From positions 1 through 64,000 of the forward strand of contig NZ_CANMUU010000001.1 in NCBI RefSeq assembly GCF_947501165.1: DNA of 64,000 nt, read 5' to 3'. This document shows positions 28,540 through 31,414 of this stretch, piece by piece; position 1 is the stretch's first letter; each line of letters opens with the position of its first letter. The notes below the pieces were generated by a model. That model ran no database searches and was not told where the DNA came from. It saw only the letters and a program-made list of their open reading frames with translations. The DNA comes from an uncultured Allomuricauda sp. (GTDB lineage: Bacteria; Bacteroidota; Bacteroidia; Flavobacteriales; Flavobacteriaceae). Made by a program: the position numbers and the translations under genes.

Positions 28540-28911
28540 ATGGAAACTACAGTACAAGAACAGGAATTATTGACCAAAGCAAACGAAGTTGTTGAATTAT
28601 TAGCCGAAGGAAAATTCATTGAGGCCATGGAAAACTATTTGGCAGACGACGTTCAACTTTTTGAAGGAAACAACCCTGCCAAAATTGGTAAGGCCTTTAC
28701 CATAGCTGAAGAGCAAAAGTTATTGGATACCGTAACTGCCTTTCATGGTTATACCGTAACCAGCGGACCTGCTGTTAAAGGCGATACTACTTTTTACGAA
28801 GCCGTAATGGAATTCGATACCAATGATGGCACGCAGCATAGATTTGAGCAAGTAGTGCGTACCCAATGGAAAGATGGGAAAATTGTGAATGAGCGGTACT
28901 ATCACGCTTAA
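28540..28911 (+). CDS. SnoaL-like / NTF2-fold protein
   Basis: 123 residues. The alpha-plus-beta cone fold is suggested by the opening helix pair (LLTKANEVVELLAEGKFIEAMENYLADDV, in part), then KAFTIAEEQKLLDTV, and the strands TTFYEAVMEFDTNDGTQHRFEQVVRTQWKDGKI (in part) ending VNERYY. This is typical of nuclear transport factor 2-like proteins, which include isomerases, hydrolases and binding proteins. No catalytic set can be assigned. It is a single-gene unit closed by a strong terminator. Confidence 0.85.
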   Translation: METTVQEQELLTKANEVVELLAEGKFIEAMENYLADDVQLFEGNNPAKIGKAFTIAEEQKLLDTVTAFHGYTVTSGPAVKGDTTFYEAVMEFDTNDGTQHRFEQVVRTQWKDGKIVNERYYHA

Positions 28912-28982: not shown

Positions 28983-29075
28983 TGTCATTTCGAGTTGGAA
29001 CGTATTAAAAAGGAGAAATCTCTTTTTTGGTTTAGATTTCTCAATCGAAGCAGAACTTCTCATTTCGAAATGACA
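28983..29075. repeat. Palindromic repeat, full copy 1
   Basis: 93 bp. Outer arms TGTCATTTCGA / TCGAAATGACA and inner arms GAGAAATCT / AGATTTCTC, so the unit folds into one long hairpin with an unpaired middle. The outer arms are exact inverses. This and the next five entries fill the 390-bp stretch after the SnoaL-like gene, which otherwise holds no gene. Confidence 0.85.
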
Positions 29076-29088
29076 GAAAAGGAACGAA

Positions 29089-29119
29089 TGTCATTCCGAA
29101 CGTATGTGAGGAATCTCTC
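29089..29119. repeat. Palindromic repeat, isolated left half (copy 2, variant)
   Basis: TGTCATTCCGA followed by ACGTATGTGAGGAATCTC. Only the left arm is present; the right arm is missing. The core (CGTATGTGAG) differs from copies 1, 3 and 5 but resembles the half-repeat at 29621-29647, so at least two sub-families exist here. Confidence 0.75.
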
Positions 29120-29159: not shown

Positions 29160-29247
29160 TGTCATTTCGACTTGGAACGAAGTGGAAGGGAGAAATCTCA
29201 TGTTGGTCATAGATTTCTCAGTCGCTGCGCGCTTCTTCGAAATGACA
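29160..29247. repeat. Palindromic repeat, full copy 3
   Basis: 88 bp with the same outer (TGTCATTTCGA / TCGAAATGACA) and inner (GAGAAATCT / AGATTTCTC) arms as copy 1. The central spacer differs. Confidence 0.85.
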
Positions 29248-29261
29248 AAAAAGAAAACGAA

Positions 29262-29300
29262 TGTCATTTCGAGCGGGAACGCAGTGAAGCGAGAAATCTC
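29262..29300. repeat. Palindromic repeat, left half abutting the 3' end of the GIY-YIG gene
   Basis: The left arm runs from TGTCATTTCGAG to GAGAAATCTC and stops 3 bp before the stop codon of the GIY-YIG gene (29304-29306). The matching right arm is found on the far side of the gene at 29621-29647. Confidence 0.85.
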
Positions 29301-29303
29301 AAT

Positions 29304-29603
29304 CTAAAAAACACTATCATTCAAAAAATCCCAATCAGGATTCACTTCTTGAATCAGTTTCTCTTTTTTGGCTCTACGCCATCTTTTCAATTCCTTTTCC
29401 CTTCGGATGGCATCCGAAACGTTTTCAAAAGATTCATAATACACTAAAAAATAGCAGTTGTATTTCCCGGCAAAAGACAACTTAGCATTTTGACCATCTG
29501 TATAGTGTTGGGACAGTCTTCTTTGAAGATTGTTGGTCATACCAATGTATAATACGGTTTTATCGGCATTGGTGACCATGTAGACATAGTAGGTTTGGGA
29601 CAT
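29304..29603 (-). CDS. Small GIY-YIG nuclease nested in a palindromic repeat
   Basis: 99 residues, a stand-alone GIY-YIG domain of the UvrC N-terminal / YhbQ type. The two signature strands are YYVYMV at 5-10 and LYIGMTNN at 18-25; R28 and H33 follow at the usual spacing, and the acidic residue of the active site is E69 or E71 in RREKELKRW. The C-terminal tail (IQEVNPDWDFLND) is typical of the group. The gene lies exactly between the left and right arms of one repeat, the right arm ending 18-44 bp before its ATG. It is not part of an operon. It may cut DNA structures; specificity for the surrounding hairpins is inference only. Confidence 0.93.
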   Translation of the reverse strand: MSQTYYVYMVTNADKTVLYIGMTNNLQRRLSQHYTDGQNAKLSFAGKYNCYFLVYYESFENVSDAIRREKELKRWRRAKKEKLIQEVNPDWDFLNDSVF

Positions 29604-29620
29604 GGTTAAATATATGGATT

Positions 29621-29647
29621 AGATTTCTCACATGCGTTCGAAATGAC
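29621..29647. repeat. Palindromic repeat, right half upstream of the GIY-YIG gene
   Basis: AGATTTCTC, a short middle, then TTCGAAATGAC: the inverse of the left arm at 29262-29300. Together they make one repeat opened by about 320 bp holding the GIY-YIG gene. It also occupies the leader/promoter position for that gene. Confidence 0.85.
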
Positions 29648-29660
29648 TGGAAGAAACGTA

Positions 29661-29742
29661 TGTCATTTCGAGCTGGAACGCAGTGGAAGCGAGAAATCTC
29701 TTCTTCTTTCAGATTTCTCAGTCGTGCCTCCTTCGAAATGAC
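29661..29742. repeat. Palindromic repeat, full copy 5
   Basis: 82 bp, outer arms TGTCATTTCGA / TTCGAAATGAC and inner arms GAGAAATCT / AGATTTCTC. It lies 13 bp beyond the split copy. A degenerate left end (GTCACTTCGA) follows at about 29759. Confidence 0.85.
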
Positions 29743-29803
29743 CAACGGAGCAAAATAGTCACTTCGAACTCTTTGGTTTGCGGAGCGGGTAGAGTAGGTT
29801 GAA

Positions 29804-29895: not shown

Positions 29896-30297
29896 TCAAT
29901 TACTCCATGATTCATTTAACTTTTCTGACAAACTTATCTCTAATTTTGATTTTGTACCTTCTTTGAGTTTTGTTTCATCAATCAAATAATAATTCTTTGA
30001 GATATGGGACAAAAAATCCTCATCAATTAAATAGTTTGGATGCTTTTTTAAATAATAAGGAAAATAAGCTGGCCATACGTAGACACCATCGGTATAGTAA
30101 CTGTCTGGGCAAATCGGACTATTATCTTCTAAATCCATAAAGTATCCCATCCAAGCCAACAAAAGAATCCCGCTATTTAGGTAATCAATAATTATTTGTA
30201 TTGCATTTTCATTACTCGAACCACCTGCTATAACTGAAGAATATTTTTGCGCTTCAACTACATTGTTATGCTCCCTTATAAAACCTATTAACTTCAT
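29896..30297 (-). CDS. Probable immunity protein of an orphan toxin module
   Basis: 133 residues from the ATG at 30295-30297, which lies 2 bp after the stop of the toxin-like frame (a start six codons earlier, inside that frame, is also possible). The protein is acidic and cytoplasmic, with no signal peptide. Landmarks are AGGSSNENAIQIIIDYL, GYFMDLEDNSPICPDSYYTDGVYVWP (in part) and YYLKKHPNYLID. The YTDGVYVWP...YYLKKxPxYLID arrangement is what I associate with small immunity proteins paired with polymorphic toxins; I cannot give the Pfam number. Gene order, spacing and size support immunity against the domain at 30300-30596. Confidence 0.6.
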   Translation of the reverse strand: MKLIGFIREHNNVVEAQKYSSVIAGGSSNENAIQIIIDYLNSGILLLAWMGYFMDLEDNSPICPDSYYTDGVYVWPAYFPYYLKKHPNYLIDEDFLSHISKNYYLIDETKLKEGTKSKLEISLSEKLNESWSN

Positions 30298-30299
30298 AA

Positions 30300-30596
30300 T
30301 CAAAACTGTTTCCAAACACCATTATCAAAGATTTCATATGGCCCTCCCAGCAAAATCCTTACCTTATCTGTGGGTGCTAAAACTGGTGACCTTAAATATC
30401 TGCCTAACTGATATCCTGCTCCATCACGTAAAGCACCTGTATGGCATGAAATACATCTTACTGGCGTACCGCGTTTAAATCCAGATTGCAACATTTTTCT
30501 TGCTACAGATTTAGGAGAAGTTATTGCCCCATTAACTATAAAGTTGTCAAAGTGGCCATGTACTAATAATTGATGTATTCCTTTTTCCGGCACCAT
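30300..30596 (-). CDS. Orphan toxin tip, caspase-like (HG/SC) domain remnant
   Basis: 98 residues from the ATG at 30594-30596; an in-frame stop lies six codons upstream (30615-30617), so the frame is not joined to a larger toxin. Landmarks are LLVHGHFDNF (H13, G14), RKMLQSGFKRGTPVRCISCHTG (C48, C51), GYQLGRYL, SPVLAPTDKV and the ending NGVWKQF. The His-Gly and Ser-Cys pair, then a (A/G)xQLxxxL helix, an APT strand and a terminal WxxF are features of C-terminal toxin domains with a clan CD (caspase/MARTX-CPD-like) fold. It has no signal peptide, Rhs shell or T9SS tail. I take it as the detached tip of a polymorphic toxin with its immunity gene. Confidence 0.55.
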   Translation of the reverse strand: MVPEKGIHQLLVHGHFDNFIVNGAITSPKSVARKMLQSGFKRGTPVRCISCHTGALRDGAGYQLGRYLRSPVLAPTDKVRILLGGPYEIFDNGVWKQF

Positions 30597-30709: not shown

Positions 30710-31414
30710 CTACTGTAACTTAAAGGTAATTGGAATACTAAATGGAACTTTTACCGCTCTACCTCTTTGCTTACCTGGTGTCATTTTTGGTAACTTGTTG
30801 ATAATTCTCAAGGCTTCTTTCTCCAAGTTTTTATCCGGTCCACGCATTCTTATGTTTCCGATACTTCCATCCTTTTGGATTACGAAAATTACGTTTACCC
30901 TTCCTTGAACTCCCATTTCTTGAGCGATTTCTGGATAACGGAAATTCTTACGGATGTGCTTTTGCATCATCTCTTGGAAGCACTGCTTTTTATTACTTGC
31001 CTTTTCACAACCTGGGAAAACCGGTACGTCTTCAATTACAGCAAATGGAACTGAAATATCCTCTTCCACTTCTTCAACCTCTACTTCTTCAACTTCCATG
31101 ACTTCTTCTTCTTGACTGGTTTCCGTTGATTCAATAACAGTTTCCTCAACTTCTTCCTCATCTTCAACAACTTCAATTACTTCTGGAGCTGCAGGAGGTG
31201 GTGGAGGTGGTGGAGTTTTGATTTGCTCGGTCATCGGCACCTCTTCATCCAACTGATCTTCAACATTCAAAGAAATGTCATAATCATTCGCTTTATCATA
31301 CTTTTTCCATTCCATGGCCCCATAGACCAATCCTAAAACAGCAGCTAACCCTATTACAAAATAGAGGGTACTGTTTTTTCCCACATCAGCTTTCGGATTC
31401 TTTTTTAATTCCAT
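30710..31414 (-). CDS. TonB-family energy transducer
   Basis: 234 residues. A membrane anchor at about 15-35 (STLYFVIGLAAVLGLVYGAM), a proline run (seven P) at about 68-75, a long Glu/Val-rich periplasmic linker (about 80-130) and a C-terminal TonB domain (about 140-234) with FRYPEIAQEMGVQGRVNVIFVI (in part), KDGSI and the final VKVPFSIPITFKL. It would link proton motive force to outer-membrane receptors; ExbB/ExbD are not nearby. The linker is acidic where many TonBs have Pro/Lys repeats. Confidence 0.93.
   Translation of the reverse strand: MELKKNPKADVGKNSTLYFVIGLAAVLGLVYGAMEWKKYDKANDYDISLNVEDQLDEEVPMTEQIKTPPPPPPPAAPEVIEVVEDEEEVEETVIESTETSQEEEVMEVEEVEVEEVEEDISVPFAVIEDVPVFPGCEKASNKKQCFQEMMQKHIRKNFRYPEIAQEMGVQGRVNVIFVIQKDGSIGNIRMRGPDKNLEKEALRIINKLPKMTPGKQRGRAVKVPFSIPITFKLQ

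Follow-up and report, generated by a model that had tools for sequence, protein, structure and literature searches.

A small GIY-YIG endonuclease gene nested between the two halves of a palindromic repeat in an uncultured Allomuricauda sp. is probably the enzyme of a REP-type repeat system, which is the best explanation of the sequence data as a whole. The gene lies in the window, i.e., the whole stretch of 64,000 nucleotides that was analysed, where the locus comprises the following features.

28540–28911, plus strand: SnoaL-like neighbour gene, which delimits the G003 (genome) empty site on one side
28983–29075, no strand: full palindrome made of two half units, geneless, 93 bp
29089–29118, plus strand: lone half unit, stem altered on both sides (compensated), ATTCC/GGAAT
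29160–29247, no strand: full palindrome, geneless, 88 bp
29262–29300, plus strand: REP-like half unit at the 3' side of the gene, TGTC tag facing outward
29304–29603, minus strand: GIY-YIG nuclease gene, 99 aa, single-domain (PF01541 profile match)
29621–29648, minus strand: REP-like half unit at the 5' side of the gene, tag facing outward
29661–29743, no strand: full palindrome, geneless, 83 bp
30710–31414, minus strand: TonB-like neighbour gene, which marks the other side of the G003 empty site

The layout proposed in the initial annotation, a gene nested between repeat arms with three full palindromes and a lone half around it, was confirmed on the sequence, as were the 3 nt separating the left arm from the GIY-YIG stop codon, but the right arm lies 17 nt from the start codon and not 18 bp. 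Clustering of the repeat at this locus is far beyond chance. With at most one mismatch, TGTCATTTCGA occurs 11 times in the window against 1.58 expected, 10 of these copies falling inside a 0.76-kb cluster, and GAGAAATCTC occurs four times against 0.17 expected. The 3.73-Mb genome harbours 18 copies of the half-unit pattern, seven of them at the GIY-YIG locus, and none of the reversed pattern used as a control. The full palindromes fold better than shuffled sequences (z of -3.2, -4.8, and -3.6), and the two split arms, taken singly, fold no better than shuffles (z of -0.1 and 0.2). A 139-aa ORF without Pfam match is located beside the repeat array (29896–30315).

Each solo palindrome consists of two half units with their tags outward, and the half unit itself, a TGTC tag followed by a stem starting with AT, is a hairpin maintained by compensatory change. 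Units of the form GTCAT-xxx-GA...GA-yyy-ATC were gathered irrespective of pairing, giving 1120 units in 161 loci, of which 980 are complementary (shuffle mean 467, maximum 502). When a single unit per locus and type was retained, 218 out of 276 were complementary, whereas 1000 shuffles averaged 65 and never exceeded 80; the paired units fall into 13 stem types. The remaining 58 are non-complementary, the largest such class being TCA/AGA (57 of the 1120 raw units). The two halves differ from each other in 123 of 286 dimers; 91 of the 123 retain internal pairing in both halves, at the expense of pairing between one half and the other. Since the stems covary and most dimers with unlike halves keep their inner stems, selection acts on the half unit as a hairpin, the form of a REP. 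Nearest-neighbour DNA energies gave a z of -4.7 for a CGTC REP of the Shinella type, and the hairpin type of clade B, described below, was no better than shuffles by this measure (z about 0). A pyrimidine-GNA-purine core is present in 470 of 998 paired units, a count made without control; GNA loops are unusually stable in DNA.

Di Nocera et al. (2013; PMC3733652) divided REPs into the GTAG and CGTC super-families. According to the accessible part of this survey, the CGTC tag is often TGTC or CCTC, stems begin with AT, head-to-head dimers dominate, and the elements are scattered in intergenic regions of five phyla, including Bacteroidetes and alpha-proteobacteria, with G. forsetii, A. lipoferum, and the Neisseria dRS3 repeat among the named cases. 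In the same part, CGTC REPs "apparently lack a dedicated transposase", no transposase gene being flanked by them. The window units share the tag set, the AT-starting stem, the head-to-head dimers, and the intergenic scatter: TGTC-AT is present in the left arm, the lone half, and the full palindromes, while the outer base of the right arm is A, giving AGTC. They differ in having a 5-bp basal stem, GA/GA, and a variable upper part, with TC or CTC tails instead of CCA, and thus depart from the form with an 8–9-bp stem, a 4–5-nt loop, and a CCA tail. The accessible text of PMC12306157 and PMC6006769 does not name GIY-YIG, and in a literature search covering titles and the beginnings of abstracts, with preprints and most subscription papers outside its coverage, GIY-YIG was never linked to REP or CGTC repeats.

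With regard to the enzyme, the window protein matches PF01541 with an E-value of 6.7e-18 and 65.2 bits (cut-off 22.6), and thus carries a GIY-YIG catalytic domain. Y8, Y19, G21, R29, E69, and N88 are unchanged in all 12 aligned sequences, and the Tyr, Tyr, Arg, Glu, and Asn are what we take to be the catalytic residues of the family. Profile comparison matched the protein to 1ywl and 1zg2 (E about 2e-4), and an AlphaFold2 model built from 12 sequences (pLDDT 74.5) had as its top Foldseek match the UPF0213 protein 1zg2 at E=1.2e-3, followed by Slx1 nucleases, with no match below 0.001. UPF0213-type single-domain GIY-YIG proteins thus resemble the window enzyme in size and predicted fold; some of them reside in housekeeping neighbourhoods without REPs, such as the Radiobacillus protein (L343) encoded between a tRNA methyltransferase gene and rsmI. 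A phage origin of the gene was discarded, with one weak match among 50,697 phage records.

The partnership between enzyme and repeat is well supported by the surroundings of homologous genes. In 71 genomes of the genus, 13 close homologues were found at E <= 2.7e-39, one per genome, one of which (L035) carries an internal stop. The initial annotation had suggested checking whether GIY-YIG homologues sit between the same arms, and all 13 carry the exact motif on both sides. Three further matches are fragments, one with arms on both sides (L039) and two with arms on one side (L046, at a contig end, and L048). In 80 named Bacteroidota loci, a degenerate motif occurs within 300 bp on both sides of 73 genes, on one side of four, and on neither side of three, and the motif density is 8.8 per kb within 300 bp vs 0.33 per kb beyond 1.2 kb. 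For 195 genes, duplicates included, positioned by HMM and binned by HMM score, arms on both sides, one side, or neither side were counted in 94, 3, and 0 cases at 140 bits or more; 28, 3, and 3 at 120–140 bits; 23, 5, and 7 at 100–120 bits; 5, 2, and 11 at 85–100 bits; 3, 3, and 4 at 60–85 bits; and 0, 0, and 1 below 60 bits. These locus counts are not independent, because the loci share ancestry and some of them are duplicates (the sets overlap, the window gene being L001, L025, and L079). A gapped alignment of left against right flanks was rejected as a de novo inverted-repeat statistic, as flanks of different loci score highly against one another because the repeat is common to all. At the family level, the exact pattern is present in 67 of 397 genomes and a homologue at E <= 1e-20 in 175, figures that mix the clades and do not test association.

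Beyond the close homologues, the exact-motif test was applied to 14 GIY-YIG loci of lower similarity in the genus, none of which proved to be flanked. Their use as unflanked controls was dropped, since a looser motif revealed that eight of the 14, hereafter clade B, are accompanied by a hairpin type of their own, so that clade B became a test of specificity. Clade B proteins bear the signature LYTGVTN, LYTGMTN, or LYTGITN, and their genes L314–L317 have ATTCT, ATGCT, or ATACT arms. Arms of the clade A (window-type) genes L035, L029, L032, and L026 are mostly ATTTC, with a few ATTCC, ATTTT, ATTCA, and ATTGC variants. Genes of both clades occur together in four genomes, and in all four the hairpins of the two clades are different, neither set lying within 400 bp of the other gene. 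In clade D, units of the TGTCATTCCTGCGAAAGCAGGAATCCA or TGTCATTCCGCACTTGATGCGGAATCCA type are found on both sides of five out of six genes (two in L319, and those of L320, L323, and L325) and on one side of the sixth (L318); these arms are canonical CGTC-type REPs. No GTC-type REPs were found beside the clade C and E genes examined. Enzyme clades thus go with their own hairpin types, even within one genome. In a tree of 179 distinct proteins from 201 genes (proteins below 80 aa and matches below 50 bits having been dropped from the source sets), the hairpin class agrees in 137 of 178 neighbouring leaves, compared with a shuffle mean of 63 and a maximum of 81; host relatedness confounds this statistic, unlike the within-genome comparison of clades A and B, which is free of it. 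The best reading of these specificity data is that each enzyme recognises its cognate hairpin. Within the genus, the genes of other GIY-YIG clades that lack GTC-type REPs are those of L321, L322, L319 (first gene), L325 (second gene), and L049–L054. In another genome, four GIY-YIG genes, three of them equal in score, are packed in 5 kb (L238, G324:C1:834307-839043), and no GTC motif was present within 330 bp of the single gene examined there.

Homologues were also found in a plasmid collection, in which tblastn returned 34 records, of which 20 were read; several of the records are close kin. GTC/CTC-tag REPs flank 11 of the 20 genes on both sides (L204, L205, L206, L208, L209, L211, L213, L214, L338, L339, L342) and four on one side (L207, L210, L216, L341), and occur on neither side of five (L212, L215, L340, L343, L344); mononucleotide shuffles gave 0.003 hairpins per kb. 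The loci from Spirosoma, itself a member of Bacteroidota (L204), and from a cyanobacterium (L205) were scored with the degenerate motif, and the downstream unit of the S. meliloti gene (L207) was missed by the detector owing to one extra base. Many proteobacterial homologues carry textbook CGTC-type REPs, and the form with an 8–9-bp stem, a 4–5-nt loop, and a CCA tail is found at clade D, Rhizobiaceae, Azospirillum, and Neisseria loci. On S. meliloti pSymB, a truncated direct repeat of the GIY-YIG gene is located 0.5 kb away (89% over 273 bp), with REPs between (L207).

At matching sites, relatives differ in whether a solo unit or a gene-plus-repeat block is present, and the empty sites that the initial annotation proposed to look for do exist. 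In A. lipoferum 4B, sufB and sufC are separated by 617 bp consisting of a REP dimer, the GIY-YIG gene, and a second REP dimer, and the spacer is REP-free in A. ramasamyi, A. oryzae, and Azospirillum B510 (91, 87, and 129 bp, respectively); in 11 other Azospirillum records among the matches listed, the flanks match at 71–73% coverage in two pieces. On a Shinella PSBB067 plasmid (1538260–1540250, L339), a GIY-YIG gene and CGTC REPs also lie between sufB and sufC, as judged from match positions only. Near position 632700 of contig C1, the window genome has a solo insert of about 210 bp, made of one degenerate and one full palindrome, with its right edge within a few bases of the tag. Eleven relatives were compared there, one being unreadable; in nine of the ten readable ones the flanks abut or are at most 37 bp apart, and in the tenth 772 bp of different DNA lie between them. 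At the window site, the ctaB–tonB gap could be measured in 23 of 29 relatives' loci and spans 121–182 bp in 13; the exact motif is missing from 22 of the 23 gaps. In G003, the SnoaL gene lies 110 bp from tonB and the motif is absent. No target-site duplication was found at the compared sites.

The ctaB–tonB interval also varies in other ways within the genus, as would be expected of a common insertion hot spot that had brought gene and repeats together, or of mere chance; the recurrence of the pairing at many sites and its clade specificity refute this explanation, whose probability we regard as negligible. Another alternative is a homing-type passenger, whose product would cut existing REPs and whose gene would be copied in by repair while the repeats spread by other means. 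It would account for repeats found without the gene: a palindrome is present at ctaB–tonB in G013, the one exception among the 23 measured gaps and a genome with no GIY-YIG match at E <= 0.001; the gltA–lpxB interval of Sinorhizobium K101, which in S. meliloti Ak57 contains the gene together with a truncated repeat of it, has REP-like units and no gene; and many gene-less genomes contain repeats. However, the A. lipoferum site occupied by both gene and REPs has no REPs in any of the three relatives whose spacers were measured, and clade-specific hairpins require joint evolution of enzyme and repeat, so that we consider homing unlikely.

The initial annotation also anticipated that solo repeats would favour gene-bearing genomes. 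Away from the gene (copies at the gene excluded), the median number of pattern copies is 11 in the 16 genomes in which either a clade A gene or any of the three fragments occurs vs 2 in the other 55 (p=0.0006, uncorrected for relatedness), in agreement with this expectation, but genomes counted as gene-less hold up to 26, 25, and 20 copies (G006, G060, which is 71% complete, and G033), indicating that repeats persist without the gene. In three of 12 fetched solo-repeat stretches, the ORFs were inspected and none besides the GIY-YIG gene lay inside a single unit; the other nine were scanned for the motif only. Another mover, a RAYT or other transposase beside which the GIY-YIG gene would be a bystander, might be considered on the grounds that RAYT-family (PF01797) matches occur in 13 of the 71 genus genomes, with one of the 19 loci (L189) having a single degenerate motif copy 110 bp downstream. 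Yet the RAYT family, which is the class tested, has no match in the window genome, which thus lacks a Y1 HUH transposase of this family, and none of the 19 loci has the motif on both sides. This makes a RAYT disfavoured as mover of the repeats, and the transposase explanation very improbable.

A further alternative relates to Ssn, reportedly defined in a 2025 Nat Commun paper as a family of GIY-YIG site-specific nucleases that cleave single-stranded DNA only, with a repeated cognate sequence in Neisseria; a small GIY-YIG enzyme and a repeated cognate-like sequence are likewise found in the window genome. The paper, which is said to describe effects on transformation in Neisseria, probably covers part of the enzyme–repeat link; mobility, nesting between REP halves, and a link to CGTC REPs are seemingly not its subject. 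By analogy, enzyme and scattered sites could modulate DNA uptake or genome dynamics as a host function, the repeats being no longer moved by the enzyme. The Neisseria gonorrhoeae homologue, which is located within CGTC REP arrays, fits such a role, but the patchy distribution of the gene (present in 13 of the 71 genomes of the genus), its fragments, and its recent gains are reminiscent of a mobile element. As the sole explanation, an Ssn-like function seems improbable, and it is compatible with a GIY-YIG-based REP system.

Under the preferred reading, a REP-type system with a GIY-YIG enzyme, the arrangement parallels REP/RAYT elements (REPtrons, REPINs), in which the enzyme gene lies between hairpins that are also found solo and as inverted dimers, the dispersed solo copies differing in presence from one relative to the next, as is the case here. 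It differs in the tag (TGTC vs GTAG) and in the enzyme, a GIY-YIG protein in place of an HUH RAYT, in a genome without RAYT-family match. The suggestion of a REP/RAYT-like unit in which GIY-YIG replaces the RAYT is thus supported by the flanking of all 13 close homologues, the higher copy numbers in gene-bearing genomes, and the insert-free sites. As for the idea of an autonomous element with its offspring, the gene between arms and the solo copies are observed, but the relation between them is inferred, because much the same picture would arise if the gene had homed into repeats that were already there. Likewise, that the enzyme drives the spread of the repeat is inferred. We propose that the enzyme would recognise its cognate hairpin in single-stranded DNA, on the lagging strand or in incoming transforming DNA, and cut close to the GTC foot, after which the cut strand, on being repaired or copied, may give rise to dimers at new places, at times accompanied by the gene. 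Autonomy would reside in the gene with its arms, on which the solo palindromes would depend, an arrangement like that of REP/RAYT but with hydrolytic GIY-YIG chemistry replacing the HUH tyrosine transposase.

On a broader scale, we see an even chance that the dedicated enzymes so far missing for the CGTC REP super-family are small GIY-YIG nucleases, and that these hence form a second REP-mobilising class beside the RAYTs, chemically unrelated to them, with several mutually orthogonal enzyme–hairpin pairs within one genome and a distribution that takes in Bacteroidota, the alpha-, beta-, and gamma-proteobacteria, and probably the cyanobacteria. CGTC REPs, left enzyme-less in the accessible text of the 2013 survey (PMC3733652), would thereby gain a candidate enzyme. 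With clade-matched hairpins, each GIY-YIG enzyme has a substrate that can be tested directly, and the matched pairs would serve as naturally occurring sets of orthogonal hairpin-specific nucleases. If the enzyme does drive the spread, hydrolytic GIY-YIG chemistry performs the repeat-spreading job that the REP field attributes to HUH transposases.

Two other places in the window genome may be mentioned. On contig C4 (90196–93399, L002), a small GIY-YIG gene (about 1501–1704 of this stretch) is located beside a tRNA-Arg(tcg) gene (1392–1466), and a copy of the tRNA-Arg end recurs on the other side of the GIY-YIG gene, as if the latter had been inserted at the tRNA end. On contig C1 (365200–366350, L326), a palindrome is accommodated in frame within an ORF (116–850) with ATP-dependent DNA ligase domains, with motif copies at 214 and 278.
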